From Pythium myriotylum (lineage: Eukaryota; Oomycota; Peronosporomycetes; Pythiales; Pythiaceae), in contig JALJCQ010000014.1 of the NCBI GenBank assembly GCA_023091665.1, forward strand, positions 1,612,001-1,676,000: a DNA stretch of 64,000 bases. The letters run 5' to 3'. Numbering within the stretch: the stretch's first letter is position 1; the number at the start of each line of letters is the position of its first letter. This document shows positions 12,458 to 45,274 of the stretch, one piece after another. The translations under genes were made by a program, and so were the position numbers. The notes below the pieces were generated by a model. It made no database searches. It had not been told where the DNA came from and saw nothing but the letters and a program-made list of their open reading frames with translations.

Positions 12458-12528
12458 GCGCGAGACCGGGTTCGAACCAGTGACCCTTCGAGCTGCAATC
12501 GAAAGCTCTACCACTGAGCTACCCGCGC
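12458..12528 (-). tRNA. tRNA-Cys (GCA), copy abutting retrotransposon 1
   Basis: Complete 71-nt tRNA-Cys identical to the array copies. Its first base (12,528) is directly followed by the retrotransposon that starts at 12,529. The native 5' flank is therefore replaced by element sequence while the internal A and B boxes, U73 and terminator remain. It should still be transcribable by pol III, now reading leftwards away from the element. Confidence 0.95.
12513..12528. repeat. Left target-site duplication of element 1
   Basis: ACTGAGCTACCCGCGC, the complement of the first 16 nt of tRNA-Cys. It is repeated exactly at 19,870-19,885 on the other side of the element. Confidence 0.93.
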
Positions 12529-12622
12529 CACTTCTCGTTTTGCCTCGTCGAGCACAAGTCGATCCAAGCAAACAGCCGAAGTAACCAGCCAACCAGCCTC
12601 CCAGCCTTCCCGTCGAACGAAG

Positions 12623-15340
12623 ATGAAGCCAGCGAACCAGATCGACTCGGCTCGCCCATCCCCCTCCGACCTCGACTTTGTGGGTGAGAACCCTCCCGCG
12701 CAGCTGCTCCGTCCCGTCTCTGCACAAGATTCGGGAAGTCTCACGCATTGTGAGCCACCATCTGGTCTGGATGGTGCCAGTAACACTGCCGACGACTCTG
12801 CGACGCCTGCGCCCGTATCTCACGTGACTTCGAAGTCAGTGAATGCGCAAGCCCCAGTCAGCTCCGGCACGACCACCACCTCCGCGGTCGACGACGCCGA
12901 CGCTCCTTCAACCGCCGACGGACCCGCCTCTACCGCCCGCATCGTGGATGTCGGTGCCGGTATGACGGTGCTCGTGACAGGCTCCGCTCCGGTGGCGTCT
13001 GGAGTCGAGATCTCCGTTGCGCTTTCCAGTTCGACCGACTCGCCCGCGAACACTGGGACTACTGCTGTCTCCGGTGGCGACGATGACGACGACGACTTGA
13101 TGATGGCGGCGACCTCGCTCCAGCTCAGTCTCGCCTCAAGCCCCGACGAATCAACTGTTGAAGACTCGACTACGACTGATTCGACCCCGGATCCGATTCC
13201 GGATGCTCAGCAACCGCCTGCCAGTGCGGCAGGTGCGACGCCTTCGCTTGGTGCTCTTCTACGCCGTCCAACCGAGATTCGCCGTGACAGAACTCCCGTC
13301 TCGGCGACCAGTCGTGTGGTGCTGCCTCGACCGTGTGCTGCGGATATCGAAGCGATTGACGCGCTGTACGAGAACGGTGGCGACTGGGCCTCGCTCTTCA
13401 CGTCAGTTGAACAAGCGCGCCCGTACGAGCTCCCGCGCGCTCGTTACGTCATGACCATCGACACTGGTCGCGCGTTCGAGCGTACCGGCATCAACAAGAT
13501 CATGGCGTCTTTTCTCAAGGACAACGGGAGCCCCGTGGTCACCGAGCAGATCAAGCTTCAAGAACTCGGCCAGATCTCCAAGGGTCGTGGCGGAGAAATC
13601 CGCGTCAAGGTCAAGTCACGTGCTGCGTGCGAACGCCTCGCGCGTCAGGAAGTCAAGATCCTCGGTGGCAAGTACATGTTCCAAGACTTCGACGTCCTCG
13701 CCGATCGCTTCTACATCGACATCTCGAGCGTCGACAGCAACTTCGACAACGAAGGTCTTCTGCGCGCGTTCTTCGACATCGGCAGCGAGCCGATTTACGA
13801 CACGTTCCGCGACGTCAACCTCGCGTCCGGAATGACGACAGCAACGTGGCGCGTCTACTTTCGAAGTGCGACGTGCCCACGAGCGCTGTGTGTGCAAGGC
13901 TTCACGTGCGACCAAGTCATCTTCGGCAACCGCATGTACCCAGCTTTGGCGCGCGACGCCGCGTTCCCGTCCCAGCGACGTGGTTTCGGTCAGGTGTCGC
14001 CACACGCTTTGGACTTGGACAAGATCAACCAGCCTACTCCGCCAGCACCAGTGCAACCGTCCGAGCCGGCTGCTCCGACTTCGTACGCAGACGCGGTGAA
14101 GAACGGTGTCTCGCAAGCGGAGTCCAAGTCGCAAGACTCTGCAAGCGTCATCTCGGTCGGTACGCACGCGGGATCGCTGTTGACGCCTCCGGGTAGTCCG
14201 CAGCCTGGAGCCAAGTCTCTGCCGCCGCCGCCACCGCCGCTCGGTCTGTCCGCGTCCAACGCAGATCGTCCGGAAAACGGAACCAAATCGACCAAGTCCA
14301 AGGGCAAGCGCTCGCGTTACGCCGACGACTTTGCCGACATGTTACAGAAGGCGCGACCGAAGCCCGTGCAAGGCATCGCGACAAGCAACTACTTCGAAGT
14401 GTTGAACTCCATCGAGTTCGAACTCGACTGCTGCAATGCGGCGCTCAACGAGTCGAGCCTGCCGCGGTTCCAGGTCGTGCCTCGCAAGGTCAAGGGTCCC
14501 GACACGATCAAGACCAGCAAGGAGTCGAGTCACTTCTTGACCAAGCACCACACTCTGGTCATGAAGACGAAGGAACCGACGTCAATCCAAGAGATCCTCG
14601 CCGAACTCGAGACGACCGAGCCCACCGCCGACCTCCAGCTCCAGTCGAACCATATCGCTGCAGCGGACGTTCGTGCGGAATCACTTCGGAAGACTCTCCG
14701 CAACACGGCCAACCCGGACACGATCGGCCATCTTGCCGGTGGGAAGTCTCCGCTCGCGTTCAACTCTGTGCTGCTCGGCGAGATGAGTGACCTCAGCGGC
14801 AACGTCAAGGAACTCGCACAGCTCCACATGATCAATCGTGTGTTGAGCGCGACTGATCCAAACTCGTGTACGACCTTCGCGCACAAGTGGGCTGCGCACT
14901 ACGGTGAGAAGCTGCCGAAGGATCGCAATGACATCTTCAAGATGACGGGACGGTGGTATCGTGATGAGCGGATGTCGGCGCTCTTGCGAGCCACGTGCGC
15001 GCTCTCGTTGTTCGAGTTGATGCTCATGTGCACGGCGCCGCAGATCTTCCAGAGCGACATGTGGATCCAGCGCCTTACCGGAGCTCCAGTCGGGTGGATT
15101 CCAGCACTCAACGGTCGTTTGCTCCACCCCAACGTGTTGTTGGCACTGCTGCGCTCCGACTTGGGCGCACAGATCTTTGCCGTGTGGGAGAAGATCCAGT
15201 GGCAAGGCGAGCTTCTCGACGACCTCGAATATCTTCGCACGTGCGGCTTGTACTTCTCCGACGACGAAGCGGTTCTCCAGCTTACGGCTGTCAACGGCGT
15301 CGCAACACTAGGTGCCGGACCGCTCTGCCTCGACTGCTAA
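12623..15340 (+). CDS. Retrotransposon ORF1 protein (copy 1)
   Basis: A 905-aa protein starting at the first ATG of the element. Residues 1 to about 190 are low-complexity, rich in Ala, Ser, Thr, Asp and Pro, with an acidic Asp run. Residues from about 265 to 440 look like a folded region of alternating strands and helices with conserved basic and aromatic positions. I suspect an RNA-binding fold like the RRM of L1-type ORF1 proteins, but I cannot prove it. A Pro-rich linker with a run of seven prolines and a Lys-rich patch follow, then a helical C-terminal part with the final Cys pair. No clear CCHC gag knuckle was found. In family terms it would coat the element RNA and act as chaperone in the ribonucleoprotein. 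It ends with TAA at 15,338-15,340, inside the ORF2 frame. Confidence 0.85.
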   Translation: MKPANQIDSARPSPSDLDFVGENPPAQLLRPVSAQDSGSLTHCEPPSGLDGASNTADDSATPAPVSHVTSKSVNAQAPVSSGTTTTSAVDDADAPSTADGPASTARIVDVGAGMTVLVTGSAPVASGVEISVALSSSTDSPANTGTTAVSGGDDDDDDLMMAATSLQLSLASSPDESTVEDSTTTDSTPDPIPDAQQPPASAAGATPSLGALLRRPTEIRRDRTPVSATSRVVLPRPCAADIEAIDALYENGGDWASLFTSVEQARPYELPRARYVMTIDTGRAFERTGINKIMASFLKDNGSPVVTEQIKLQELGQISKGRGGEIRVKVKSRAACERLARQEVKILGGKYMFQDFDVLADRFYIDISSVDSNFDNEGLLRAFFDIGSEPIYDTFRDVNLASGMTTATWRVYFRSATCPRALCVQGFTCDQVIFGNRMYPALARDAAFPSQRRGFGQVSPHALDLDKINQPTPPAPVQPSEPAAPTSYADAVKNGVSQAESKSQDSASVISVGTHAGSLLTPPGSPQPGAKSLPPPPPPLGLSASNADRPENGTKSTKSKGKRSRYADDFADMLQKARPKPVQGIATSNYFEVLNSIEFELDCCNAALNESSLPRFQVVPRKVKGPDTIKTSKESSHFLTKHHTLVMKTKEPTSIQEILAELETTEPTADLQLQSNHIAAADVRAESLRKTLRNTANPDTIGHLAGGKSPLAFNSVLLGEMSDLSGNVKELAQLHMINRVLSATDPNSCTTFAHKWAAHYGEKLPKDRNDIFKMTGRWYRDERMSALLRATCALSLFELMLMCTAPQIFQSDMWIQRLTGAPVGWIPALNGRLLHPNVLLALLRSDLGAQIFAVWEKIQWQGELLDDLEYLRTCGLYFSDDEAVLQLTAVNGVATLGAGPLCLDC

Positions 15341-18300
15341 AGCGGTCGAGGCGGACGCGGCCGAGGTCTCGTGGGAGAACATCAGTCTTTTGACGGTGAA
15401 CACCAACGGGATCAAGAAGAACGGCCACCTGTTGATCGAGAACCAGCTCATCAAGAACAGTCTCTCGTGCGTCCAAGAGACCAAGCTGCGCGACTCGCAT
15501 CATCGTGCAACGCTCCAATTCCACCATGACTCAAGATTTCAACACCGCCTCTTCGTCAGCGACACCAACGCGCACAGTCCAGTTGCCGTTGCTGCACGAT
15601 CGGGTGGCGTCATGACAGTGCTCCGCTCCGACTTTCCCGGCTTTCAGTCTGCTTGTGAGCAGTCTTCGTTGACTATTCAAGGCCGCTACTTGGTCGTCCG
15701 GGTCGTCGCGAACGGTGCTCCGATCTACATCCACAACGTGTACGCGCCAGTCGATAACTTCGAGAAGAAGGGGTTCTTCGAAGCGCTACCGTACGAAGTG
15801 TTCGAAGACAATGCGACTCACCTGGTGCTCGGTGACCTCAACACGCCACTTGACCCCCTCGTCGATGCGTCGGATCCAAGGGCGACAGGAACGACCGGCG
15901 GTAACGCGTGTGTGGCGTGGTTGGCCCAACTCGGTGTCGTGGATGCCTGGCGAATCCACCATCCCGACGAACGCGTCTACACTGGTCCACAGCCTCGACA
16001 CAACCGTCTCGACTACATCCTCATGTCGGAGGACTTCTGCACCGCGCTATACGGTGACTCCTCGTACTTTGAGCCCAAGGGTGCCGGCGACCATCTCGCA
16101 CATCAAGTTGTGTTGCGCGCGATGAGCCAGCCTCAAGGCCACGGGTACTGGCGTTTCCAGTCGGCGATGCTCGACTTCCCCGATATCGTTGAAGCTATCC
16201 AAGGCGAAGCGACGACTGTGCTTGCTGCGTTACGGCGCTCCTCCAACCCGGGCAAGGTGTGGCACAAGTGGAAGAAGGACATGCGTCGTCAGCTTCAAGC
16301 TCTGCAGCGCAAGCTGAAGCGTCAAGGTGAGACCGCCATCACCGAAGCTCGTCAGGCACTTGCCCACGCGGCTGCGGCATACCGGTCGGAGCGAAGCGAT
16401 CGCGCGCAGACGGTGTTCCAGACCGCACTGACGGCATACCAAGACAGCATCAACTCGGCGCGGCTTTACAACCAGGACTCGGCTTTCGACTTCCAGGCTC
16501 AACACGCGGAGATGTCATCCAAGTACTTCTTTCGACCGCTGGACGGATCCTTGCGGAGAGTCAGCATCGAGGAAGTGCGGCTTCGAGATGGCTCTGCCTC
16601 CAGCAACCCCGCGGATATCGCGGCTGTCTTCGGTCAGCACTGGGGCGGTATCATGGGCGATGTTGAGCGCGGTGGTGTTGTCGTCCAAGAGCCTGAGCAG
16701 AGCCAGATTGACCGGATGCTCGACACGATCGACCGCCGACTGTCTGAAGACGAGCAAAATATCCTCAACGCTCCGATCACAGCGGCGGACCTTGCTAGTG
16801 CAATCAAGAAGATGCGGGCATCGTCTGCACCCGGGATGGATGGGCTTCCAGCTTCGTTCTACCAAGTGGCTCCTGACGTCTTCGGTGAATGCCTCGAGAT
16901 CGTGTTCAACTACCAGCTTCAGCGAGGAGAGCTCCTTCGGTGTCAGCGCCAGTCTGCGATCAGTCTGCTGCACAAGAAGGGATCCCGAGCTGACCCAGGC
17001 AACTATCGCCCAATTGCTTTGATGGGTGTCGACGTGAAGGCACTGTCAAAGGTTCTCGCTTTCCGACTGCAGTTGTTCCTGACCAAGCTTGTGCACCAAG
17101 ACCAGAAGGCTTTCGTGCGTGGTCGCTCTCTGCATCACCACGTTCGTTTCGTGAGTGACCTGCAAGACCTCGTCACCGCGCGCGACGAGGAAGCCTACGC
17201 CATGTTCCTCGACTTTGAGAAGGCGTACGACCGCGTCAACTGGAACTACATGTTTCAGGTGCTCGATCGGATGGGATGTGGCGGGGCGTTCTCGGGGTGG
17301 GTGAAGCTCCTGTACACTCGACCACACGCGCATCTCATGATCAACGGATTCGTGCAAGACCCGCTCTGCCCAACGCGCGGAGTCAAGCAAGGTGATCCGC
17401 TGTCGGCGCTGCTGTTCTTGCTTGTTATCGAGCCACTCGGTAACCTGCTCCGCCAGCACGAAGAACATGGGATCTGCTTGACAGCGGATGCCACCGTCGC
17501 GAGTATTTTCTTCGCCGACGACTCGACGTTACTGTCGGGCTCTATCGCTGGTGTCGAGGCGCAACTTGGGTTGGTCGAAGAATACTGTCAAGGCTCCGGC
17601 GCCAAGCTCAACGTGAACAAGTGTGTGCTGATGTCGCTGCATCGAACGCGGCGATGCCCGGGCATACCAGGTGTGCAGGTTCTCGATGAAGACTCCACGG
17701 TCAAGTTCCTCGGTCTCCTGTTCGGTCAACGACGCACAACGGAATTGATTGTTGAAGACCTCGATCGACGCTTCTTTGACGGGTTCAAGCAGTGGTTTCG
17801 GCGCGCACGGACGCTCCAAGGCAGGCTCCTCGTCGCCCAGACCATGGTGCTCTCACGTCTGTGGCACTACACTGCTCACGTTGTTGTGCCGCCAGGACGA
17901 GTGAAGAAGTGGCAAGCCGCGCTACACCGGTTCGTCTTGAGTCGGCGCTACGAACGCGACGCTCGGCATGTCCAGTTGATCTCGAACGAATTTGTCAACC
18001 TGCCGCGCGAGTCTGGGGGTCTGCAGGTACCGAGTCTCGACGGTGTGCTCAAGCGACAGTCACTGCAGCTCCTGCTTCAGTTCACGGCAGCTTCGGCATC
18101 GACGACCGGCAACTGGACGGTAGCAGGAGTCGAGCTGCTGCGGATCAGTCTTCCGCGGTGGGGCCCGCAGAGGCCACTCGACTTTCTCTACGTCAGTCCG
18201 TGGCGGCATCGAGGCTCGATCGAGTGGGACCAGCTCTCTTCGTGGTGGCGTGCGGCCTGGAAGACTTGGTACGCTATCAAGTGGCCGGTGTCGTGGCTCG

Positions 18301-19478
18301 ACCTCCCTCCAGAAGACCGTCTTGCGTTTGCACTCGACCAACCGATCTGGTTCCATGGCGACAAGAACTTCCAGTTCCTCCCAACCAGCCGTTCCGACAC
18401 AACGCCGTCCCAGCATCGTTCTCTCAGCATGATTGCAGAGCCGCAACGAAGCTTCCGTCGGCAAGTTGCCCGTGTCTTTCAGTTGCGATCTCTTCGTGAC
18501 TTCGCTGGTGAAGGCGACAAGTGGCCGAGCGCGATCGAGTTTGCTGAGCGACATGTCGACTACACCCAAGTCTCCATCACCCCGTATCGACAGTACACGT
18601 GGCTGCTCAAGCTTCACGAGGAAGCCACGCAAGTTTTCGGGCGTCTCTGCACAATGTGCTCTGTCCCAGTCGATGGAGTGCTACCGACGGCGCCTGAGCA
18701 CCAACATCCGCGAGTCGGTGTGAAGATCAACGACCGTGTGTGCTGGGTGCCGCGCATTCCACGATCCCAACTGCTCCGCCTGGTGTGGCAAGCTCCAGAG
18801 CCGACGAGAACGCATCCGCTGTTCTTCCACGACCCTCGAGCGCCTACAGACGTGGTCCTCCGATTCAACAAGCTACGCAAGCGGCTTCGTGTGTTGCTTC
18901 TCCCGATATACGAAGACCTCCAGTTCCGCTTGGCGTACGGCTTGTTACCGACTCGCTCACGCTTCTCGTTCATGACGGTGGCAAATCCCGGCATCGTGTA
19001 CTGTGTTCGACCAGGCTGCAACTCAGTGGAGACGGCGCGTCATTTGTTCTTCGAGTGTGTGCTGCCGACTGTGATATGGCGCGACATCTTCCGTGATATG
19101 TCGGTGTTCTTCACATCTCGACCCTCCTGGACCGACATTGTCTTCGGTAAAGCCATCCGCGTTGCTCCCGTGTGGAAGGACCACACAGAAGAAATCCAAG
19201 ACCTGTGGCAAGTCATCCGTGCTGTGGTGCTTCACCTGTTGTGGACTGAACGCAATGGGCGACTGTTCAACGGGCGGTCCCCGATGCCAACAATTGCAGC
19301 ACTGCGTGTGGTGTATACGACTGTGGGTGCTCATGTGCGTGCGTGTCTTCGACGTGTGTACGACGATGCGCAGCGTGCTTCGCTTCAGGTTGTGTTGTCA
19401 AGTCTCCAGTCTACGCCTTCGCTTGGTGCCTTCATGCAAAACAACATGGGGTTGTTTGCAGTTCGCTTTTTGGCATAA
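15312..19478 (+). CDS. Retrotransposon ORF2: AP endonuclease, reverse transcriptase, zinc knuckle (copy 1)
   Basis: An open frame of 1388 codons between a TAG at 15,309-15,311 and the stop at 19,478. The N-terminal 250 residues are an exonuclease-endonuclease-phosphatase domain: VNTNG near residue 28, QETKL at 55-59, YAPV, LGDLN and a terminal GDH. The reverse transcriptase follows, with NYRPIAL, LDFEKAYDRV (Asp634), GVKQGDPLSALLF and the catalytic FADD at 734-737. Near the C-terminus C1231-X4-C1236-X7-H1244-X4-C1249 forms a zf-RVT-type knuckle. The endonuclease should nick the tRNA-Cys gene and the RT prime from the nick. The first ATG (Met101) lies after the NTNG and QETKL motifs. Normal initiation would therefore lose the endonuclease, and expression probably needs a +1 frameshift from ORF1 or a non-AUG restart. 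Confidence 0.93.
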   Translation: MPDRSASTAKAVEADAAEVSWENISLLTVNTNGIKKNGHLLIENQLIKNSLSCVQETKLRDSHHRATLQFHHDSRFQHRLFVSDTNAHSPVAVAARSGGVMTVLRSDFPGFQSACEQSSLTIQGRYLVVRVVANGAPIYIHNVYAPVDNFEKKGFFEALPYEVFEDNATHLVLGDLNTPLDPLVDASDPRATGTTGGNACVAWLAQLGVVDAWRIHHPDERVYTGPQPRHNRLDYILMSEDFCTALYGDSSYFEPKGAGDHLAHQVVLRAMSQPQGHGYWRFQSAMLDFPDIVEAIQGEATTVLAALRRSSNPGKVWHKWKKDMRRQLQALQRKLKRQGETAITEARQALAHAAAAYRSERSDRAQTVFQTALTAYQDSINSARLYNQDSAFDFQAQHAEMSSKYFFRPLDGSLRRVSIEEVRLRDGSASSNPADIAAVFGQHWGGIMGDVERGGVVVQEPEQSQIDRMLDTIDRRLSEDEQNILNAPITAADLASAIKKMRASSAPGMDGLPASFYQVAPDVFGECLEIVFNYQLQRGELLRCQRQSAISLLHKKGSRADPGNYRPIALMGVDVKALSKVLAFRLQLFLTKLVHQDQKAFVRGRSLHHHVRFVSDLQDLVTARDEEAYAMFLDFEKAYDRVNWNYMFQVLDRMGCGGAFSGWVKLLYTRPHAHLMINGFVQDPLCPTRGVKQGDPLSALLFLLVIEPLGNLLRQHEEHGICLTADATVASIFFADDSTLLSGSIAGVEAQLGLVEEYCQGSGAKLNVNKCVLMSLHRTRRCPGIPGVQVLDEDSTVKFLGLLFGQRRTTELIVEDLDRRFFDGFKQWFRRARTLQGRLLVAQTMVLSRLWHYTAHVVVPPGRVKKWQAALHRFVLSRRYERDARHVQLISNEFVNLPRESGGLQVPSLDGVLKRQSLQLLLQFTAASASTTGNWTVAGVELLRISLPRWGPQRPLDFLYVSPWRHRGSIEWDQLSSWWRAAWKTWYAIKWPVSWLDLPPEDRLAFALDQPIWFHGDKNFQFLPTSRSDTTPSQHRSLSMIAEPQRSFRRQVARVFQLRSLRDFAGEGDKWPSAIEFAERHVDYTQVSITPYRQYTWLLKLHEEATQVFGRLCTMCSVPVDGVLPTAPEHQHPRVGVKINDRVCWVPRIPRSQLLRLVWQAPEPTRTHPLFFHDPRAPTDVVLRFNKLRKRLRVLLLPIYEDLQFRLAYGLLPTRSRFSFMTVANPGIVYCVRPGCNSVETARHLFFECVLPTVIWRDIFRDMSVFFTSRPSWTDIVFGKAIRVAPVWKDHTEEIQDLWQVIRAVVLHLLWTERNGRLFNGRSPMPTIAALRVVYTTVGAHVRACLRRVYDDAQRASLQVVLSSLQSTPSLGAFMQNNMGLFAVRFLA

Positions 19479-19610
19479 AAGCGATTTCCTGCCGTTTCTT
19501 CTTCTTCAGTGCGGGTGCTTGCTTTCAATACTGGCTCGAAACCAACCTCGTTTTGGAATCAGAGCGTACCCTCGCGGCCGAAGTCAAGCGAAACCACTAG
19601 CACAAGAAAC

Positions 19611-19687
19611 CTCCCCGAGGTGGGGATCGAACCCGCGCGACCGACAACATCGGGGTCCACGCTCATAACCATTTGAGCTAACCGCAG
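19611..19687 (-). other. tRNA-like segment in 3' UTR (element copy 1)
   Basis: On the minus strand, antisense to the element, there is an A-box-like TTAGCTCAAATGG, a possible D arm GCTC/GAGC, an anticodon-like loop ATGTTGT and a T-arm-like GCGGGTTCGATCCCC with a good B box. The acceptor stem does not pair, and I see only three good pairs in the anticodon stem. I call it a degenerate tRNA-derived sequence, not a tRNA gene. The loop would read GTT if aligned as a tRNA. Confidence 0.5.
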
Positions 19688-19869
19688 TTATCCAACCGAT
19701 GTGCTAAAACAAGTACCTAGACCAGTCAAGACCAACGGAAGTCAACCAACAACTCAACAATTGAAGCTCCCAGCCTCGTCACATACTAGTCAAGTGTATA
19801 ATATTCATCGACGAGGTAGATTAGAGTAGTCATAGTCGCATTAATTTTAGTTAATACAGACGCCTTGAA

Positions 19870-19885
19870 ACTGAGCTACCCGCGC
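19870..19885. repeat. Right target-site duplication of element 1
   Basis: Same 16 bp as 12,513-12,528. It is an isolated 5' fragment of tRNA-Cys, joined to the native tRNA 5' flank (GTCGAAACC and onwards). The remaining 55 nt of the tRNA are absent here, so this is a fragment and not a gene. Confidence 0.93.
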
Positions 19886-26264: not shown

Positions 26265-26336
26265 GCGCGAGACCGGGTTCGAACCAGTGACCCTTCGAGC
26301 TGCAATACAGACGCCTTGAAACTGAGCTACCCGCGC
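26265..26336 (-). pseudogene. tRNA-Cys pseudogene with element 3'-end scar
   Basis: The 3' half (T arm, variable loop, anticodon loop GCA) and the first 16 nt are normal. The middle, which should complete the D arm and half of the anticodon stem, is replaced by TACAGACGCCTTGAA. That is exactly the 3' terminus of the two retrotransposons. The D stem and anticodon stem cannot form and the A box is broken, so no functional tRNA is expected. The junction sits at a shared AAT, consistent with deletion between a tRNA copy and an element 3' end. Confidence 0.93.
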
Positions 26337-27562
26337 GTCGAAACCAGACTCCTACGCTCACTCAACAAACCCCGCTTTGACAATACACTTGGACAACTTT
26401 CACATTACACCAACAACAACACAATACACACATCATCGCCTCCACGCGAACAACTAACCAACAAACCGCCACAACCAGATACACACACGCCACCACACGC
26501 CGCACCGGCGCACACGGATCCCAACAACCCAACACAACGCTCCCCACACTACACCCCCACCGCATGCCATTGCTTTACCCTCTACGCACACATTACCCAG
26601 ACCCCAGACCCCAGACCCCAGACCCCAGATCCATCTGACCATCCATCCCTACGTGGTGATACACAGCTCCTTCCGAATGCGTGTGACCCCGCACTGCTGT
26701 CAAACACCCGACCCAAATGCCATCCATCCATCCGACGCCGTCCACGACTCGATTGGCCTATACGTCTGCCTACCGATCATGCTTGTCAGCCCGTTATCTC
26801 GTCGTACTATCATTCTCTCACGCATGATGAGTGCTATCCTCACATCAACGAAACCAAAAGCCAAACTGAACTCGGAACCGCGACCGCGACCGCGACCGCG
26901 ACCGCGACCGCGACCGAAACCGATACCGAAACCGCGACCGAAACCGAAACGAGCATCCCGCTTGCCTTCCGGTTGATGCCACCCCACACAGGTGGGCTGA
27001 TCCGTCCTTCATCCTTCGCCTCGTGTCGTCTGTGCGAGCTGAGCGAAGGTGTCTATTGTCCACACAGGATCTCGACTCAACTGCGCGTATGTGTTGGCAC
27101 GACAGACTCGAACGACTACACCAACCTGAACGTGGTCGATGGACTCGTAGTTGGGACCCACCCACTCACCCACCCACGCTGGGTCCGCGGTGAGGGGCTA
27201 GAACCAACGAGTGCGAGGGGATTGAAGCCGCATGCGTGGGAACAAGTGCGGGGGTTGGTGCCGACTCCTGGTTCACCTTGTCAGCTGAACGCACACGCTG
27301 GTTAGATGGTGACATGCTCGTCAAATGGAGCCAACATGCGGGCAGCGGTGGAGTGTGGAAAGAAAGACAAGCAAGCACGACGAAGAGCGAGCATTGTCGA
27401 GGATAGGATGAGGGTGACGGGAAGGAGGTGATAGATAATGTGCTGGTGTGTGTGTTTGTGTTTGATTGTGTGGTGGTTAGTTGTGTTGTTTTATTGTTTT
27501 GGTTGTTGTAGTATGCGGTGTGTTTGTGTATGTGAGTGGAGTCGGGCGTGGATCAAAAAGAA

Positions 27563-27630
27563 GCGCGAGACCGGGTTCGAACCAGTGACCCTTCGAGCTG
27601 CAATCGAAAGCTCTACTGAGCTACCCGCGC
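27563..27630 (-). pseudogene. tRNA-Cys with 3-nt D-loop deletion
   Basis: 68 nt instead of 71. Three bases are missing so the D arm reads GCTCAGTAGAGC, removing the conserved GG of the D loop that docks with the T loop and shortening the A box. Everything else is intact. Probably non-functional or poorly transcribed, but a weak tRNA cannot be excluded. Confidence 0.8.
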
Positions 27631-36560: not shown

Positions 36561-36631
36561 GCGCGAGACCGGGTTCGAACCAGTGAACCTTCGAGCTGCA
36601 ATCGAAAGCTCTACCACTGAGCTACCCGCGC
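36561..36631 (-). tRNA. tRNA-Cys (GCA), variable-loop variant
   Basis: Same G46U variable-loop variant as the copy at 32,715-32,785; last of four adjacent units with it. Confidence 0.93.
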
Positions 36632-37831
36632 GTCGAAACCAGACTCCTACGCTCACTCAACAAACCCCGCTTTGACAATACACTTGGACAACTTTCACAT
36701 TACACCAACAACAACACAATACACACATCATCGCCTCCACGCGAACAACTAACCAACAAACCGCCACAACCAGATACACACACGCCACCACACGCCGCAC
36801 CGGCGCACACGGATCCCAACAACCCAACACAACGCTCCCCACACTACACCCCCACCGCATGCCATTGCTTTACCCTCTACGCACACATTACCCAGACCCC
36901 AGACCCCAGATCCATCTGACCATCCATCCCTACGTGGTGATACACAGCTCCTTCCGAATGCGTGTGACCCCGCACTGCTGTCAAACACCCGACCCAAATG
37001 CCATCCATCCATCCGACGCCGTCCACGACTCGATTGGCCTATACGTCTGCCTACCGATCATGCTTGTCAGCCCGTTATCTCGTCGTACTATCATTCTCTC
37101 ACGCATGATGAGTGCTATCCTCACATCAACGAAACCAAAAGCCAAACTGAACTCGGAACCGCGACCGCGACCGCGACCGCGACCGCGACCGATACCGAAA
37201 CCGCGACCGAAACCGAAACGAGCATCCCGCTTGCCTTCCGGTTGATGCCACCCCACACAGGTGGGCTGATCCGTCCTTCATCCTTCGCCTCGTGTCGTCT
37301 GTGCGAGCTGAGCGAAGGTGTCTATTGTCCACACAGGATCTCGACTCAACTGCGCGTATGTGTTGGCACGACAGACTCGAACGACTACACCAACCTGAAC
37401 GTGGTCGATGGACTCGTAGTTGGGACCCACCCACTCACCCACCCACGCTGGGTCCGCGGTGAGGGGCTAGAACCAACGAGTGCGAGTGGATTGAAGCCAC
37501 ATGCGTGGGAACAAGTGCGGGGGTTGGTGCCGACTCCTGGTTCACCTTGTCAGCTGAACGCACACGCTGGTTAGATGGTGACATGCTCATCAAATGGAGC
37601 CAACATGCGGGCAGCGGTGGAGTGTGGAAAGAAAGACAAGCATGCACGACGAAGAGCGAGCATTGTCGAGGATAGGATGAGGGTGACGGGAAGGAGGTGA
37701 TAGATAATGTGCTGGTGTGTGTGTTTGTGTTTGATTGTGTGGTGGTTAGTTGTGTTGTTTTATTGTTTTGGTTGTTGTAGTATGCGGTGTGTTTGTGTAT
37801 GTGAGTGGAGTCGGGCGTGGATCAAAAAGAA

Positions 37832-37902
37832 GCGCGAGACCGGGTTCGAACCAGTGACCCTTCGAGCTGCAATCGAAAGCTCTACCACTGAGCTACCCGC
37901 GC
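37832..37902 (-). tRNA. tRNA-Cys (GCA), copy abutting retrotransposon 2
   Basis: Complete reference-type 71-nt tRNA. Its 5' end at 37,902 touches the second retrotransposon, exactly as at 12,528. Internal promoter, U73 and terminator are intact. Confidence 0.95.
37887..37902. repeat. Left target-site duplication of element 2
   Basis: ACTGAGCTACCCGCGC, repeated at 45,259-45,274. Confidence 0.93.
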
Positions 37903-38005
37903 TCACTTCTCGTTTTGCCTCGTCGAGCACAAGTCGATCCAAGCAAACAGCCGAAGTAACCAGCCTCCCAGCCTCCCGGCCTCCCAGCCTTCCCGCCGAA
38001 CGAAG

Positions 38006-40723
38006 ATGAAGCCAGCGAACCAGATCGACTCGGCCCCCCCATCTCCCTCCGACCTCGACTTTGTGGGTGAGAACCCTCCCGCGCAGCTGCTCCGTCCCGT
38101 CTCTGCACAAGATTCGGGAAGCCTCACCCATTGTGAGCCACCATCTGGTCCGGATGGTGCCAGTGCGACTGCCGACGACCCTGCGACGCCCGCGCCCGTA
38201 TCTCACGTGACTTCGAAGTCAGTGAATGCGCAAGCCCCAGTCAGCTCCGGCACGACCACCACCTCCGCGGTCGACGACGCCGACGCTCCTTCAACCGCCG
38301 ACGGACCCGACTCTACCGCCTGCATCGTGGATGTCGGTGCCGGTATGACGGTGCTCGTGACAGGCTCCGCTCCGGTGGCGTCTGGAGTCGAGATCTCCGT
38401 TGCGCTTTCCAGTTCGACCGACTCGCCCGCGAACACTGGGACTACTGCTGTCCCCGGTGGCGACGATGACGACGACGACTTGATGATGGCGGCGACCTCG
38501 CTCCAGCTCAGTCTCGCCTCAAGCCCCGACGAATCAACTGTTGAAGACTCGACTACGACTGATTCGACCCCGGATCCGATTCCGGATGCTCAGCAACCGC
38601 CTGCCAGTGCGGCAGGTGCGACGCCTTCGCTTGGTGCTCTTCTACGCCGTCCAACCGAGATTCGCCGTGACAGAACTCCCGTCTCGGCGACCAGTCGTGT
38701 GGTGCTGCCTCGACCGTGTGCTGCGGATATCGAAGCGATTGACGCGCTGTACGAGAACGGTGGCGACTGGGCCTCGCTCTTCACGTCAGTTGAACAAGCG
38801 CGCCCGTACGAGCTCCCGCGCGCTCGTTACGTCATGACCATCGACACTGGTCGCGCGTTCGAGCGTACCGGCATCAACAAGATCATGGCGTCTTTTCTCA
38901 AGGACAACGGGAACCCCGTGGTCACCGAGCAGATCAAGCTTCAAGAACTCGGCCAGATCTCCAAGGGTCGTGGCGGAGAAATCCGCGTCAAGGTCAAGTC
39001 ACGTGCTGCGTGCGAACGTCTCGCGCGTCAGGAAGTCAAGATCCTCGGTGGCAAGTACATGTTCCAAGACTTCGACGTCCTCGCCGATCGCTTCTACATC
39101 GACATCTCGAGCGTCGACAGCAACTTCGACAACGAAGGTCTTCTGCGCGCGTTCTTCGACATCGGCAGCGAGCCGATCTACGACACGTTCCGCGACGTCA
39201 ACCTCGCGTCCGGAATGACGACAGCAACGTGGCGCGTCTACTTTCGAAGTGCGACGTGCCCAAGAGCGCTGTGTGTGCAAGGCTTCACGTGCGACCAAGT
39301 CATCTTCGGCAGCCGCATGTACCCAGCTTTGGCGCGCGACGCCGCGTTCCCGTCCCAGCGACGTGGTTTCGGTCAGGTGTCGCCACACGCTTTGGACTTG
39401 GACAAGATCAACAAGCCTACTCCGCCAGCACCAGTGCAACCGTCCGAGCCGGCTGCTCCGACTTCGTACGCAGACGCGGTGAAGAACGGTGTCTCGCAAG
39501 CGGAGTCCAAGTCGCAAGACTCTGCAAGCGTCATCTCGGTCGGTACGCACGCGGGATCGCTGTTGACGCCTCCGGGTAGTCCGCAGCCTGGAACCAAGTC
39601 TCTGCCGCCGCCGCCACCGCCGCTCGGTCTGTCCGCGTCCAACGCAGATCGTCCGGAAAACGGAACCAAATCGACCAAGTCCAAGGGCAAGCGCTCGCGT
39701 TACGCCGACGACTTTGCCGACATGTTACAGAAGGCGCGACCGAAGCCCGTGCAAGGCATCGCGACAAGCAACTACTTCGAAGTGTTGAACTCCATCGAGT
39801 TCGAACTCGACTGCTGCAATGCGGCGCTCAACGAGTCGAGCCTGCCGCGGTTCCAGGTCGTGCCTCGCAAGGTCAAGGGTCCCGACACGATCAAGACCAG
39901 CAAGGAGTCGAGTCACTTCTTGACCAAGCACCACACCAAGGTGATGAAGACGAAGGAAGCGACGTCGATCCAAGAGATCCTCGCCGAACTCGAGACAACC
40001 GAGCCTACCGCCGACCTCCAGCTCCAGTCGAACCACATCGCTGCAGCGGACGTTCGTGCGGAATCACTTCGGAAGACTCTCCGCAACACGGCCAACCCGG
40101 ACACGATCGGCCATCTTGCCGGTGGGAAGTCTCCGCTCGCGTTCAACTCTGTGCTGCTCGGCGAGATGAGTGACCTCAGCGGCAACGTCAAGGAACTCGC
40201 ACAGCTCCACATGATCAATCGTGTGTTGAGCGCGACTGATCCAAACTCGTGTACGACCTTCGCGCACAAGTGGGCTGCGCACTACGGTGAGAAGCTGCCG
40301 AAGGATCGCAATGACATCTTCAAGATGACGGGACGGTGGTATCGTGATGAGCGGATGTCGGCGCTCTTGCGAGCCACGTGCGCGCTCTCGTTGTTCGAGT
40401 TGATGCTCATGTGCACGGCGCCGCAGATCTTCCAGAGCGACATGTGGATCCAGCGCCTTACCGGAGCTCCAGTCGGGTGGATTCCAGCACTCAACGGTCG
40501 TTTGCTCCACCCCAACGTGTTGTTGGCACTGCTGCGCTCCGACTTGGGCGCACAGATCTTTGCCGTGTGGGAGAAGATCCAGTGGCAAGGCGAGCTTCTC
40601 GACGACCTCGAATATCTTCGCACGTGCGGCTTGTACTTCTCCGATGACGAAGCGGTTCTCCAGCTTACGGCTGTCAACGGCGTCGCAACACTAGGTGCCG
40701 GACCGCTCTGCCTCGACTGCTAA
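38006..40723 (+). CDS. Retrotransposon ORF1 protein (copy 2)
   Basis: 905 aa, the same length and layout as the copy-1 protein at 12,623: acidic Ser/Thr/Ala-rich N-terminus, presumed RNA-binding middle region and Pro/Lys-rich linker. Only about twenty substitutions were seen by eye, mostly in the low-complexity N-terminus (for example Leu to Pro and Asn to Ala around residues 49-53) and near residue 645. The concentration of changes outside the presumed folded part fits purifying selection or recent origin. The stop again lies inside the ORF2 frame. Confidence 0.85.
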   Translation: MKPANQIDSAPPSPSDLDFVGENPPAQLLRPVSAQDSGSLTHCEPPSGPDGASATADDPATPAPVSHVTSKSVNAQAPVSSGTTTTSAVDDADAPSTADGPDSTACIVDVGAGMTVLVTGSAPVASGVEISVALSSSTDSPANTGTTAVPGGDDDDDDLMMAATSLQLSLASSPDESTVEDSTTTDSTPDPIPDAQQPPASAAGATPSLGALLRRPTEIRRDRTPVSATSRVVLPRPCAADIEAIDALYENGGDWASLFTSVEQARPYELPRARYVMTIDTGRAFERTGINKIMASFLKDNGNPVVTEQIKLQELGQISKGRGGEIRVKVKSRAACERLARQEVKILGGKYMFQDFDVLADRFYIDISSVDSNFDNEGLLRAFFDIGSEPIYDTFRDVNLASGMTTATWRVYFRSATCPRALCVQGFTCDQVIFGSRMYPALARDAAFPSQRRGFGQVSPHALDLDKINKPTPPAPVQPSEPAAPTSYADAVKNGVSQAESKSQDSASVISVGTHAGSLLTPPGSPQPGTKSLPPPPPPLGLSASNADRPENGTKSTKSKGKRSRYADDFADMLQKARPKPVQGIATSNYFEVLNSIEFELDCCNAALNESSLPRFQVVPRKVKGPDTIKTSKESSHFLTKHHTKVMKTKEATSIQEILAELETTEPTADLQLQSNHIAAADVRAESLRKTLRNTANPDTIGHLAGGKSPLAFNSVLLGEMSDLSGNVKELAQLHMINRVLSATDPNSCTTFAHKWAAHYGEKLPKDRNDIFKMTGRWYRDERMSALLRATCALSLFELMLMCTAPQIFQSDMWIQRLTGAPVGWIPALNGRLLHPNVLLALLRSDLGAQIFAVWEKIQWQGELLDDLEYLRTCGLYFSDDEAVLQLTAVNGVATLGAGPLCLDC

Positions 40724-43700
40724 AGCGGTCGAGGCGGACGCGGCCGAGGTCTCGTGGGAGAACATCAGTCTTTTGACGGTGAACACCAACGGGATCAAGA
40801 AGAACGGCCACCTGTTGATCGAGAACCAGCTCATCAAGAACAGTCTCTCGTGCGTCCAAGAGACCAAGCTGCGCGACTCGCATCATCGTGCAACGCTCCA
40901 ATTCCACCATGACTCAAGATTTCAACACCGCCTCTTCGTCAGCGACACCAACGCGCACAGTCCAGTTGCCGTTGCTGCACGATCGGGTGGCGTCATGACA
41001 GTGCTCCGCTCCGACTTTCCCGGGTTTCAGTCTGCTTGTGAGCAGTCTTCGTTGACTATTCAAGGCCGCTACTTGGTCGTCCGGGTCGTCGCGAACGGTG
41101 CTCCGATCTACATCCACAACGTGTACGCGCCAGTCGATAACTTCGAGAAGAAGGGGTTCTTCGAAGCGCTACCGTACGAAGTGTTCGAAGACAATGCGAC
41201 TCACCTGGTGCTCGGTGACCTCAACACGCCACTCGACCCCCTCGTCGATGCGTCGGATCCAAGGGCGACAGGAACGACCGGCGGTAACGCGTGCGTGGCG
41301 TGGTTGGCCCAGCTCGGTGTCGTGGATGCCTGGCGAATCCACCATCCCGACGAACGCGTCTACACTGGTCCACAGCCTCGACACAACCGTCTCGACTACA
41401 TCCTCATGTCAGAAGACTTCTGCACCGCGCTGTACGGTGACTCCTTGTACTTTGAGCCCAAGGGTGCCGGCGACCATCTCGCACATCAAGTTGTGTTGCG
41501 CGCGATGAGCCAGCCTCAAGGCCACGGGTACTGGCGTTTCCAGTCGGCGATGCTCGACTTCCCCGATATCGTTGAAGCTATCCAAGGCGAAGCGACAACT
41601 GTGCTTGCTGCGTTACGGCGCTCCTCCAACCCGGGCAAGGTGTGGCACAAGTGGAAGAAGGGCATGCGTCGTCAGCTTCAAGCTCTGCAGCGCAAGCTGA
41701 AGCGTCAAGGCGAGACCGCCACCACCGAAGCTCGTCAGGCACTTGCCCACGCGGCTGCGGCATACCGGTCGGAGCGAAGCGATCGCGCGCAGACGGTGTT
41801 CCAGACCGCACTGACGGCATACCAAGACAGCATCAACTCGGCGCGTCTTTACAACCAAGACTCGGCTTTCGACTTCCAGGCTCAACACGCGGAGAAGTCA
41901 TCCAAGTACTTCTTTCGACCGCTAGACGGATCCTTGCGGAGAGTCAGCATCGAAGAAGTGCGGCTTCAAGATGGCTCAGCATCAAGCAACCCCGCGGATA
42001 TCGCGGCTGCCTTCAATCAGCACTGGGGCGGTATCATGGGCGATGTTGAGCGCGGTGGTGTTGTCGTCCAAGAGCCTGAGCAGAGCCAGATTGACCGGAT
42101 GCTCGACACGATCGACCGCCGACTGTCTGAAGACGAGCAAAATATCCTCAACGCTCCGATCACAGCGGCGGACCTCGCCAGTGCAATCAAGAAGATGCGA
42201 GCATCGTCAGCGCCCGGGATGGACGGGCTTCCAGCTGCCTTCTACCAGGTGGCTCCTGACGTGTTCGGTGAATGCCTGGAGATCGTGTTCAACTACCAAC
42301 TTCAGCGAGGCGAGCTTCTTCGGTGCCAACGCCAGTCGGCGATCAGTCTGCTGCACAAGAAGGGATCCCGAGCTGACCCAGGCAACTATCGCCCAATTGC
42401 TTTGATGGGTGTCGACGTGAAGGCACTGTCAAAGGTTCTCGCTTTCCGACTGCAGTTGTTCCTGACCAAGCTTGTGCACCAAGACCAGAAGGCTTTCGTG
42501 CGTGGTCGCTCTCTGCATCACCACGTTCGTTTCGTGAGTGACCTGCAAGACCTCGTCACCGCGCGCGACGAGGAAGCCTACGCCATGTTCCTCGACTTTG
42601 AGAAGGCGTACGACCGCGTCAACTGGAACTACATGTTTCAGGTGCTCGATCGGATGGGATGTGGCGGGGCGTTCTCGGGGTGGGTGAAGCTCCTGTACAC
42701 TCGACCACACGCGCATCTCATGATCAACGGATTCGTGCAAGACCCGCTCTGCCCAACGCGCGGAGTCAAGCAAGGTGATCCGCTGTCGGCGCTGCTGTTC
42801 TTGCTTGTTATCGAGCCACTCGGTAACCTGCTCCGCCAGCACGAAGAACATGGGATCTGCTTGACAGCGGATGCCACCGTCGCGAGTATTTTCTTCGCCG
42901 ACGACTCGACGTTACTGTCGGGCTCTATCGCTGGTGTCGAGGCGCAACTTGGGTTGGTCGAAGAATACTGTCAAGGCTCCGGCGCCAAGCTCAACGTGAA
43001 CAAGTGTGTGCTGATGTCGCTGCATCGAACGCGGCGATGCCCGGGCATACCAGGTGTGCAGGTTCTCGATGAAGACTCCACGGTCAAGTTCCTCGGTCTC
43101 CTGTTCGGTCAACGACGCACAACGGAATTGATTGTTGAAGACCTCGATCGACGCTTCTTTGACGGGTTCAAGCAGTGGTTTCGGCGCGCACGGACGCTCC
43201 AAGGCAGGCTCCTCGTCGCCCAGACCATGGTGCTCTCACGTCTGTGGCACTACACTGCTCACGTTGATGTGCCGCCAGGACGAGTGAAGAAGTGGCAAGC
43301 CGCGCTACACCGGTTCGTCTTGAGTCGGCGCTACGAACGCGACGCTCGGCATGTCCAGTTGATCTCGAACGAATTTGTCAACCTGCCGCGCGAGTCTGGG
43401 GGTCTGCAGGTACTGAGTCTCGACGGTGTGCTCAAGCGACAGTCACTGCAGCTCCTGCTTCAGTTCACGGCAGCTTCGACATCGACGACCGGCAACTGGA
43501 CGGTAGCAGGAGTCGAGCTGCTGCGGATCAGTCTTCCGCGGTGGGGCCCGCAGAGGCCACTCGACTTTCTCTACGTCAGTCCGTGGCGGCATCGAGGCTC
43601 GATCGAGTGGGGGCAGCTCTCTTCGTGGTGGCGTGCGGCCTGGAAGACTTGGTACGGTATCAAGTGGCCGGTGTCGTGGCTCGACCTCCCCCCAGAAGAA

Positions 43701-44861
43701 CGACTTGCGTCTGCACTCGACCAACCGATCTGGTTCCATGGCGACAAGAACTTCCAGTTCCTCCCAACCAGCCATTCCGACACAACGCCGTCCCAGCATC
43801 GTTCTCTCAGCATGATTGCAGAGCCGCAACGAAGCTTCCGTCGGCAAGTTGCCCGTGTCTTTCAGTTGCGATCTCTTCGTGACTTCGCTGGTGAAGGCGA
43901 CAAGTGGCCGAGCGCGATCGAGTTTGCTGAGCGACATGTCGACTACACCCAAGTCTCCATCACCCCGTATCGACAGTACACGTGGCTGCTCAAGCTTCAC
44001 GAGGAAGCCACGCAAGTTTTCGGGCGTCTCTGCACAATGTGCTCTGTCCCAGTCGATGGAGTGCTACCGACGGCGCCTGAGCACCAACATCCGCGAGTCG
44101 GTGTGAAGATCAACGACCGTGTGTGCTGGGTGCCGCGCATTCCACGATCCCAACTGCTCCGCCTGGTGTGGCAAGCTCCAGAGCCGACGAGAACGCATCC
44201 GCTGTTCTTCCACGACCCTCGAGCGCCTACAGACGTGGTCCTCCGATTCAACAAGCTACGCAAGCGGCTTCGTGTGTTGCTTCTCCCGATATACGAAGAC
44301 CTCCAGTTCCGCTTGGCGTACGGCTTGTTACCGACTCGCTCACGCTTCTCGTTCATGACGGTGGCAAATCCCGGCATCGTGTACTGTGTTCGACCAGGCT
44401 GCAACTCAGTGGAGACGGCGCGTCATTTGTTCTTCGAGTGTGTGCTGCCGACTGTGATATGGCGCGACATCTTCCGTGATATGTCGGTGTTCTTCACATC
44501 TCGACCCTCCTGGACCGACATTGTCTTCGGTAAAGCCATCCGCGTTGCTCCCGTGTGGAAGGACCACACAGAAGAAATCCAAGACCTGTGGCAAGTCATC
44601 CGTGCTGTGGTGCTTCACCTGTTGTGGACTGAACGCAATGGGCGACTGTTCAACGGGCGGTCCCCGATGCCAACAATTGCAGCACTGCGTGTGGTGTATA
44701 CGACTGTGGGTGCTCATGTGCGTGCGTGTCTTCGACGTGTGTACGACGATGTGCAGCGTGCTTCGCTTCAGGTTGTGTTGTCAAGTCTCCAGTCTACGCC
44801 TTCGCTTGGTGCCTTCATGCAAAACAACATGGGGTTGTTTGCAGTTCGCTTTTTGGCATAA
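40695..44861 (+). CDS. Retrotransposon ORF2: AP endonuclease, reverse transcriptase, zinc knuckle (copy 2)
   Basis: 1388 codons, same organisation as the copy-1 frame at 15,312, with all endonuclease, RT (FADD) and zinc-knuckle motifs intact. The overlap with ORF1 (29 nt, +1 frame) and the absence of an early ATG are conserved. Differences from copy 1 cluster: about 10 percent of bases differ around 42,170-42,340, just before the core RT motifs, whereas the next roughly 900 bases appear identical. The reading frame starts at a GTG codon after a TAG. The true translation mechanism is unknown. Confidence 0.93.
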   Translation: MPDRSASTAKAVEADAAEVSWENISLLTVNTNGIKKNGHLLIENQLIKNSLSCVQETKLRDSHHRATLQFHHDSRFQHRLFVSDTNAHSPVAVAARSGGVMTVLRSDFPGFQSACEQSSLTIQGRYLVVRVVANGAPIYIHNVYAPVDNFEKKGFFEALPYEVFEDNATHLVLGDLNTPLDPLVDASDPRATGTTGGNACVAWLAQLGVVDAWRIHHPDERVYTGPQPRHNRLDYILMSEDFCTALYGDSLYFEPKGAGDHLAHQVVLRAMSQPQGHGYWRFQSAMLDFPDIVEAIQGEATTVLAALRRSSNPGKVWHKWKKGMRRQLQALQRKLKRQGETATTEARQALAHAAAAYRSERSDRAQTVFQTALTAYQDSINSARLYNQDSAFDFQAQHAEKSSKYFFRPLDGSLRRVSIEEVRLQDGSASSNPADIAAAFNQHWGGIMGDVERGGVVVQEPEQSQIDRMLDTIDRRLSEDEQNILNAPITAADLASAIKKMRASSAPGMDGLPAAFYQVAPDVFGECLEIVFNYQLQRGELLRCQRQSAISLLHKKGSRADPGNYRPIALMGVDVKALSKVLAFRLQLFLTKLVHQDQKAFVRGRSLHHHVRFVSDLQDLVTARDEEAYAMFLDFEKAYDRVNWNYMFQVLDRMGCGGAFSGWVKLLYTRPHAHLMINGFVQDPLCPTRGVKQGDPLSALLFLLVIEPLGNLLRQHEEHGICLTADATVASIFFADDSTLLSGSIAGVEAQLGLVEEYCQGSGAKLNVNKCVLMSLHRTRRCPGIPGVQVLDEDSTVKFLGLLFGQRRTTELIVEDLDRRFFDGFKQWFRRARTLQGRLLVAQTMVLSRLWHYTAHVDVPPGRVKKWQAALHRFVLSRRYERDARHVQLISNEFVNLPRESGGLQVLSLDGVLKRQSLQLLLQFTAASTSTTGNWTVAGVELLRISLPRWGPQRPLDFLYVSPWRHRGSIEWGQLSSWWRAAWKTWYGIKWPVSWLDLPPEERLASALDQPIWFHGDKNFQFLPTSHSDTTPSQHRSLSMIAEPQRSFRRQVARVFQLRSLRDFAGEGDKWPSAIEFAERHVDYTQVSITPYRQYTWLLKLHEEATQVFGRLCTMCSVPVDGVLPTAPEHQHPRVGVKINDRVCWVPRIPRSQLLRLVWQAPEPTRTHPLFFHDPRAPTDVVLRFNKLRKRLRVLLLPIYEDLQFRLAYGLLPTRSRFSFMTVANPGIVYCVRPGCNSVETARHLFFECVLPTVIWRDIFRDMSVFFTSRPSWTDIVFGKAIRVAPVWKDHTEEIQDLWQVIRAVVLHLLWTERNGRLFNGRSPMPTIAALRVVYTTVGAHVRACLRRVYDDVQRASLQVVLSSLQSTPSLGAFMQNNMGLFAVRFLA

Positions 44862-45005
44862 AAGAATTTCGTGCCGATTCTTCTTCTTCTTCTTGGCTGT
44901 GGAGGGTTTTCAACCAATCGCAGTTCGAGTTCGTCCCGAACACAAGCCAGAGGAGACCCGCGCGACCGAAGTCAAGCACCAGAATTTTAGACCACAAGGC
45001 AAGTG

Positions 45006-45076
45006 TCCGAGCCGGGGTTCGAACCCGCGACCAGTAACTTCGGATCCACACTCTTAAACGTCTGAGCTACCCGCAG
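45006..45076 (-). other. tRNA-like segment in 3' UTR (element copy 2)
   Basis: Minus-strand sequence with a good A box (GGTAGCTCAGACG), D arm GCTC/GAGT, anticodon-like loop AAGTTAC and a strong B box and T loop (GCGGGTTCGAACCCC). The acceptor ends do not pair, so it is tRNA-like only. It lies at the same place as the tRNA-like segment of copy 1 but differs strongly in sequence from it. Confidence 0.5.
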
Positions 45077-45258
45077 CTATTGAACCGACATGTTAAAACA
45101 AGTACCTAAACCAGTCAAGACCAACGGAAGTCGACCACCAACTCAACAACTGAAGCCCCCAGCCTCGTGACACATTAGTCAAGTGTATAATATTCATCGA
45201 CGAGGTAGATTAGAGTACTCATAGTCGTACTAATTATAGTTAATACAGACGCCTTGAA

Positions 45259-45274
45259 ACTGAGCTACCCGCGC
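45259..45274. repeat. Right target-site duplication of element 2
   Basis: Same 16 bp as 37,887-37,902, an isolated 5' fragment of tRNA-Cys joined to native array flank. Confidence 0.93.

Follow-up and report, generated by a model that had tools for sequence, protein, structure and literature searches.

The stretch of DNA analysed here, called the window below, comprises 64,000 nt of contig C14 of the oomycete Pythium myriotylum, whose genome (58.7 Mb, 55 contigs) is the single source of all flank evidence. The left two thirds of the window hold an array of tRNA-Cys genes in units of mostly ~1.27-1.29 kb, in which ARAGORN recognised 23 tRNAs. Two of the units each carry an element of ~7.3 kb, a long interspersed nuclear element (LINE), which in both is antisense to the tRNA. 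At both insertions the tRNA-Cys gene is complete, and its first 16 nt are present again at the 3′ end of the element.

Copy 1 (12530-19869, + strand; 7337 bp plus a GAA tail) lies between target site duplications (TSDs) that were read from the junctions at 12513-12528 and 19870-19885 (both ACTGAGCTACCCGCGC, + strand, tRNA-Cys nt 1-16 in antisense). The tRNA-Cys(GCA) gene regenerated at its 5′ end (12455-12529, - strand) was found intact by ARAGORN and scored 62.1 bits against Rfam RF00005 (12457-12528). Copy 2 (37905-45258, + strand), which ends in a second type of 3′ untranslated region (UTR) and likewise in a GAA tail, is flanked by the identical 16 nt at 37887-37902 and 45259-45274 (+ strand, junction reading), and its regenerated tRNA-Cys (37829-37903, - strand) was recognised as intact by ARAGORN and also by Rfam. 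Between TSD and element there is an extra C in copy 1 and an extra TC in copy 2. Two full-length elements at tRNA-Cys between 16-bp duplications had been proposed from a sequence-only reading of this DNA, and the coordinates, the tRNAs and the TSDs were all confirmed.

The two elements are 97.44% identical (164 mismatches, 15 gap openings) and differ in 3′-UTR type, whereas their flanks are 99.1% (7 of 799 positions mismatched) and 98.9% (3 mismatches and 2 gap openings in 800) identical. Because the elements differ by 2.6% and the flanks by ~1%, and because the 3′-UTR types and the extra 5′ nucleotides (C/TC) differ, copies 1 and 2 are separate insertions; the possibility that copy 2 is a block duplicate of copy 1 does not hold.

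Both copies encode an open reading frame (ORF) 1 of 905 aa (12623-15340 and 38006-40723, + strand) and an ORF2 of 1388 aa (15312-19478 and 40695-44861, + strand), which overlap by 29 nt with ORF2 in the +1 frame. ORF2 contains an apurinic/apyrimidinic endonuclease (APE)-type domain, a reverse transcriptase (RT) and, as judged by eye, a C-terminal CX4CX7HX4C motif. Pfam matched RVT_1 (E 3e-33) and, in copy 1, Exo_endo_phos with an E value of 3e-5 and 24.3 bits, slightly below the cut-off of 24.5; no RNase H domain was found by Pfam in the element proteins. Human L1 ORF2p aligned with ORF2 over residues 50-849, i.e. endonuclease and RT (E 3.7e-57), and R2 and R2-like chains over the RT only (E 1e-22 to 2e-20). 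Inspection of the ORF2/L1 alignment by eye revealed the L1-endonuclease residues which we take to be catalytic, together with the F-A-D-D box of the RT. We also read 22 full copies on both sides (the two in the window and 20 fetched from 40 genome matches); these have TSDs and a simple 3′ tail and no long terminal repeats (LTRs), which, with the order of endonuclease and RT in ORF2, places the element among the APE-type non-LTR retrotransposons of the L1 group. For ORF1 there was no Pfam match; a fold search covering mainly residues 274-446 predicted tandem RRM-like folds at these residues, and the C-terminal domain is predicted to be mostly helical. Thirty of the 104 RT matches in the genome lie within a stop-free frame of 1388 aa and three more within one of 1385 aa, and the LINE family is, by its sequences, evidently recently active.

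Targets of the LINE across the genome

We located 41 5′ ends of the LINE, 39 of them exact in a scan of the 58.7 Mb and two inexact; this is a lower bound because 40 of 63 candidates were scored. Most (38 of the 41) lie at tRNA genes, representing 15 isoacceptors; of the other three, two are at sequence derived from a tRNA, and for one the coordinates alone place it next to a tRNA. The most frequent targets were Ala-AGC (7), Lys-CTT (6), Cys (5), Trp (4) and Asn (3), followed by Phe, Thr-AGT and Arg-ACG with two 5′ ends each and by Ile-TAT, Ile-AAT, an intron-bearing Tyr, Pro-AGG, Pro-TGG, Met and Val with one each. The remaining three are an end at a tRNA-like sequence, a stacked end and an end next to an Rfam tRNA of unread isotype. 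The two inexact ends are among these: the one on contig C12 abuts an Rfam tRNA by coordinates, and the one on C11 lies in a TSD behind a non-autonomous copy. The word CTGAGCTA stands 4-14 nt ahead of 33 of the 39 exact 5′ ends, and the six that lack it are at or near tRNA genes for Arg (two), Pro (two), Met and Val. At the other end of the element, 44 exact LINE 3′ ends were found, and for 32 of them the downstream bases were read or pattern-matched. All but one run into the start of a tRNA (31 of 32), two of these by the pattern CTGAGCTA alone and Val just upstream of the tRNA. A genome scan with RF00005, in which 63 of 3081 candidates were scored, is not a tRNA census, and ARAGORN at a relaxed cut-off (-ps70) gave mostly noise and was not used.

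These results overturn the specificity for tRNA-Cys that had been read from the window, in which both copies sit in tRNA-Cys genes. Copies at unrelated sites had been named as the observation that would speak against it, and the genome-wide search contradicts it: five of the 41 5′ ends are in tRNA-Cys and 36 elsewhere. Genes of 14 other isoacceptors account for 33 of these 36, and the last three are the end at the tRNA-like sequence, the stacked end and the end that adjoins a tRNA by coordinates only. An element restricted to tRNA-Cys genes is thus virtually out of the question. The proposal is supported in so far as it describes a site-specific non-LTR retrotransposon of APE type in an oomycete, which lands in the A-box half of the tRNA and duplicates the 5′ part of that tRNA. 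As the best explanation of the whole we consider it highly probable that this is an L1-type LINE family whose integration site is the A box of tRNA genes generally.

A common site might also arise from one ancestral insertion that was repeated by duplication of tandem arrays. The tRNA genes do lie in tandem arrays, and L027/L028, L013/L014 and L009/copy 1 are near-identical including their flanks, so that for some pairs this is true. Elsewhere, elements are 2-3% apart where the flanks are 0-1% apart. For example, the pair L013/L019 at tRNA-Lys has flanks of 99.75-99.9% and elements of 97.9% identity, and the pair L016/L024 at tRNA-Trp has flanks of 99.6-100% and elements of 97.5% identity, both pairs at the same base. 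The junction nucleotides vary as well, and the 15 isoacceptor families used are located on many contigs. By junction and divergence the 22 full copies represent 14-17 independent events. Array duplication was rejected as a general explanation, for which it is very unlikely.

Cut geometry and a non-autonomous partner

The 22 full copies have TSDs of 15-18 nt, zero to two extra nucleotides at the 5′ end and a tail of GA, GAA or GAAA, one copy having a repeated GAAACT-type tail. At tRNA-Arg the gene reads ATTGGGCCA, whereas the 3′ junction of the element reads ACTGGGCCA, indicating that the element’s own end is ...GAAACT and that the target starts near GGGCC. With this end of the element, the nick would fall on the sense strand of the tRNA after ~nt 13. 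The nick contexts deduced in this way are GCTC^A, GCCC^A, GTCT^A and, for Val, GGTC^A, located a few nt before the tRNA starts; they share a loose motif, YYY^AR. In most copies the second-strand cut would coincide with the mature 5′ end of the tRNA. At tRNA-Val both cuts are just outside the tRNA, the element lying 16 nt ahead of the tRNA 5′ end, and the A box is present nonetheless. Tails of repeated GAAACT units occur in L018, L029, L030 and L039 and fit slippage during priming.

Based on this geometry we propose the following order of events. The ORF2 endonuclease would nick the tRNA sense strand in the A box, part of the internal promoter for RNA polymerase III (Pol III), after ~nt 13 (YYY^AR), and the freed 3′ end would pair with the 3′-terminal (GAA)ACU tail of the element RNA and prime reverse transcription. 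The second strand would then be cut, usually at the mature tRNA 5′ end, so that the 15-18 nt duplicated would be essentially tRNA nt 1-16. Insertion in antisense would leave a complete tRNA gene with its internal promoter beside the 5′ end of the element. Duplication of tRNA nt 1-16 makes the gene complete once more and leaves it open to another insertion; it would stay a target, and stacks would form. One stack was seen, on C11, where a tRNA (1632621-1632692) is followed by ~0.75 kb ending in a non-autonomous 3′ end and then by a LINE starting at 1631836. Judged from the sequence, this is the order that would be expected for a later insertion into a regenerated tRNA.

The 3′ end of the LINE is shared by a shorter element. 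In addition to those of the LINE, 121 3′ ends at CTGAGCTA across the genome belong to this non-autonomous element; the reading of 163 3′ junctions as all LINE copies was rejected, as exact LINE 3′ ends number 44. In L024, a full-length non-autonomous copy of ~0.73 kb could be read through, and it is located at the same base of a tRNA-Thr-CGT. It starts with (T)CACTTCGCAATTTGCTCG, while the LINE starts with (T)CACTTCTCGTTTTGCCTCG, and there was no significant match between the two outside the last 14-18 bp. The same spacing is found in L026, and copies that are 5′-truncated (L016, L017) or partly read (L013, L014) lie in Thr-CGT and Lys-CTT arrays. Because the listed places are mostly in regular arrays, most of the 121 are array repeats and not independent events. 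The 0.73-kb element is probably mobilised in trans to the site of the LINE, as its shared 3′ end and position suggest. It also contains internal tandem repeats and a possible short reading frame near the 5′ end (L024 reverse complement, ~8981-9699).

Choice of the insertion site and the 3′ untranslated region

The commonest target word, TAGCTCAG, occurs 1,748 times in the genome (1,748 is likewise the count for CTGAGCTA). On contig C1 (3.65 Mb) we counted 60 dispersed occurrences of CTGAGCTA, and extrapolation from this one contig gives an estimate of ~965 dispersed sites vs. ~780 in tRNA, TSD or 3′-UTR contexts. None of the 33 LINE 5′ ends at TAGCTCAG is outside tRNA or tRNA-like sequence, and divergent A boxes (TGGCCCAA, TGGTCTAG) are used as well. 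As the word is common, yet none of the 33 ends lies outside tRNA and divergent A boxes serve too, sequence recognition alone is unlikely to suffice, and the tRNA or Pol III context probably helps to choose the site. Most likely the choice depends on marking of the tRNA gene as a Pol III gene by TFIIIC/TFIIIB, to which the element might be tethered, perhaps via ORF1, with the local sequence contributing.

The earlier suggestion of sequence recognition by the ORF2 endonuclease stands in part: the near-fixed cut in the A box agrees with it, but the loose motif and the confinement of the 33 ends to tRNA context do not. Recognition by the endonuclease, together with annealing of the ...ACU tail, might in principle act without any Pol III machinery. 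With few exceptions the copies share a cut fixed within 1-2 bases, and the ACT that ends the tail matches ACTGAGC at most targets; the Arg junction (ACTGGGCCA vs. ATTGGGCCA) shows that this ACT is element-derived. In addition, one of the 3′ ends is located at a GCTCAG word that belongs to no recognisable tRNA. We nevertheless regard such a purely sequence-driven choice as unlikely, given the ~965 dispersed TAGCTCAG sites estimated from C1 vs. 33 of 33 LINE 5′ ends in tRNA or tRNA-like sequence, and given the use of quite different A boxes.

Several observations weigh against, or narrow, the view that A boxes of tRNA genes in general are the target. L027/L028 and L009/copy 1 have the appearance of block or allelic duplicates, and as many copies are in tandem arrays and some are duplicates, the events are fewer than the 41 5′ ends. 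Among the 38 isoacceptor assignments, six (two Lys, three Ala and one Asn) were made from pattern text that agrees exactly or almost exactly with a flank read at another place, and the 3′ end of L032 runs into a tRNA-like start of which 13-16 nt were read, its Glu-like isotype being a guess. The 3′ end at C12:1745328 is followed by CTGAGCAGCTCCAGTG, which is not a recognisable tRNA, so that insertion at a GCTCAG word outside tRNA is apparently possible. At Met and Val the element’s 5′ end is 11 nt and 16 nt from the tRNA, respectively. For the non-autonomous 3′ ends the tRNA context was read for a minority. The count of dispersed words rests on contig C1, and the composition control, the reversed word, with 4,271 occurrences vs. 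1,748, proved an unsuitable background and was replaced by this count. Finally, in two related families (47% and 39% RT identity), one copy of each, no tRNA was found in 601 bp at the predicted 3′ end; targeting may thus be limited to some members of the clade, unless the ends escaped detection.

The 3′ UTR itself carries a degenerate antisense tRNA, in two versions of different tRNA origin at the same place. Type 1, with A- and B-box motifs, is in copy 1 (19610-19690, - strand), and type 2 in copy 2 (45003-45077, - strand, ends approximate). On contig C18 a LINE is inserted at the corresponding A-box position of the type 2 sequence inside another LINE. The outer copy there brackets the inner one, with its 5′ end near 633510, an ORF2 match extending to 626554 and a 3′ remnant at 618795-619000. 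The antisense sequence could be a working Pol III promoter or a decoy rather than a relic, comparable to the antisense promoter in the C module of TRE5-A. This is favoured by the presence of two tRNA-derived versions in one place with A- and B-box motifs kept, and by the service of type 2 as an insertion site. On the other hand, the antisense sequence was not called a tRNA by ARAGORN at default settings or by Rfam, and L032, among 12 distinct 3′-UTR sequences compared, is without the B-box core. Overall, we lean towards a relic, while giving the promoter or decoy a real chance. A wider scheme would make the A box a universal, self-renewing landing pad, guided by Pol III, restored by duplication of the tRNA 5′ end and shared with a parasite, with an antisense tRNA-derived Pol III promoter in the cycle; as a package this is tentative and somewhat less probable than the promoter or decoy taken singly.

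Relatives, known systems and other features

All named sequences closely related to ORF1 and ORF2 come from oomycetes, namely Globisporangium splendens, Peronospora matthiolae, Lagenidium giganteum, Pythium insidiosum and [Pythium] brassicae; proteins from Globisporangium, Pythium, Lagenidium and Peronospora match at ~40-70%. One further name, truncated after ‘Plasmo’, was left uncounted. In a midpoint-rooted RT tree, for which 103 of 119 sequences (>280 RT residues) were kept, the family is in a clade of 61 that holds the tree’s oomycete-named matches (100/97), and the plant-, fungus- and insect-named matches lie outside it; no named L1, Tx1 or TRE reference was included in this tree. A search of viral contigs with ORF2 gave no match. 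The two related LINE families mentioned above are located at C27:24571-27144 (47% RT identity) and C4:3058340-3087146 (39%). Four copies of the latter lie within 30 kb and are possibly site-specific for another repeat; a 5S-like word in its 3′ region was rejected, as there was no Rfam 5S match there.

LINEs beside tRNA genes are already known from Dictyostelids. As published, TRE5-A is an L1-clade APE element with two overlapping ORFs that inserts upstream of many kinds of tRNA gene in opposite orientation, and it has a non-autonomous variant mobilised in trans as well as the antisense promoter in its 3′ C module (PMC5391098, PMC5633606, PMC5911963). The oomycete LINE resembles it in the two overlapping ORFs, the APE domain, the tRNA genes of many isotypes hit in opposite orientation and the non-autonomous partner. 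TRE5, however, depends on the B box and inserts upstream of tRNA genes at a distance of ~40-54 bp, whereas the nick of the oomycete LINE would lie inside the A box, with the 5′ part of the tRNA duplicated; in the 22 full copies the element is 0-2 nt from the TSD or tRNA, outside that upstream window. NLTR-A of Dictyostelium purpureum, a non-LTR element reported to lie upstream of tRNAs, 2-6 bp from their mature 5′ end (PMC5006619, PMC5911963), is similar in distance (usually 0-2 nt in the oomycete LINE) but has an RNase H domain, for which Pfam gave no match in the oomycete LINE.

Targeting of the A box is also known, from Dada DNA transposons of Perkinsus and fish, several lineages of which are reported to target tRNA nt 8-13 (PMC8869645). 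The site is nearly the same as that of the oomycete LINE, but Dada lineages are DNA transposons with putative TSDs at nt 8-13 and are named by their main tRNA target, as opposed to 15 isoacceptors and TSDs of 15-18 nt; neither a transposase nor a TSD of ~6 nt characterises our element. Utopia (PMC4640811) is a site-specific non-LTR family that occurs in oomycetes and, like our LINE, is aimed at a small RNA gene. It differs by its U2 small nuclear RNA (snRNA) target and a restriction-like endonuclease, neither of which is found here. Like elements of the Tx1 and R1 clades, covered in the same source, the oomycete LINE is APE-type and site-specific (PMC4640811). In the titles and abstract beginnings searched, a scope that leaves aside Repbase Reports and subscription literature, we found no LINE inserting inside the A box across isoacceptors and no tRNA-targeting oomycete LINE.

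The proposed mechanism would allow a LINE to multiply without gene breakage, by cutting inside an essential gene family and rebuilding the gene through target duplication. As the A box is among the most conserved promoter sequences of eukaryotes, the endonuclease and RT offer a starting point for RNA-templated insertion at tRNA genes. The question of endonuclease sequence or Pol III factors can be put directly to the test with the numerous near-identical copies whose ORFs are intact. The stacks, truncated footprints and the deletion at the cut may also bear on the evolution of oomycete tRNA arrays.

Such a deletion and such footprints are found in the window. One of the 23 tRNAs recognised by ARAGORN, a tRNA-Cys (27562-27630, - strand), lacks 3 nt at the position where the LINE inserts (TAGCTCAGT-AGAGC), which is compatible with a scar from imprecise nick repair at the cut site of the LINE. 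At 26305-26321 (+ strand), a footprint of ~17 bp of the element 3′ end is present in a tRNA-Cys with ~14 nt lost, and a second footprint of the same kind is in a tRNA-Cys unit at 46534-46550 (+ strand); no tRNA was called at either. The first could originate from the LINE or from the non-autonomous element.

Across the overlap of ORF1 and ORF2, folding predicted an RNA stem-loop (15317-15362, + strand) whose loop contains UAA, the stop codon of ORF1; the region 15290-15380 folds with -47.9 kcal/mol (z -4.35), and the short inverted repeat of the hairpin is present in 22 of 22 full copies. The predicted structure suggests programmed reinitiation or frameshifting for ORF2. Elsewhere in the genome, those of the 63 scored tRNA matches that lie on C2 repeat with a period of 72,126 bp and also in inverted order, a pattern resembling that of a mitochondrial genome with inverted repeats assembled in tandem more than twofold. 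The named matches of a gene neighbouring the elements are all from oomycetes, and many of the array units at 2487-46236 contain an open frame of ~244 aa with 0-2 differences among nine units compared.

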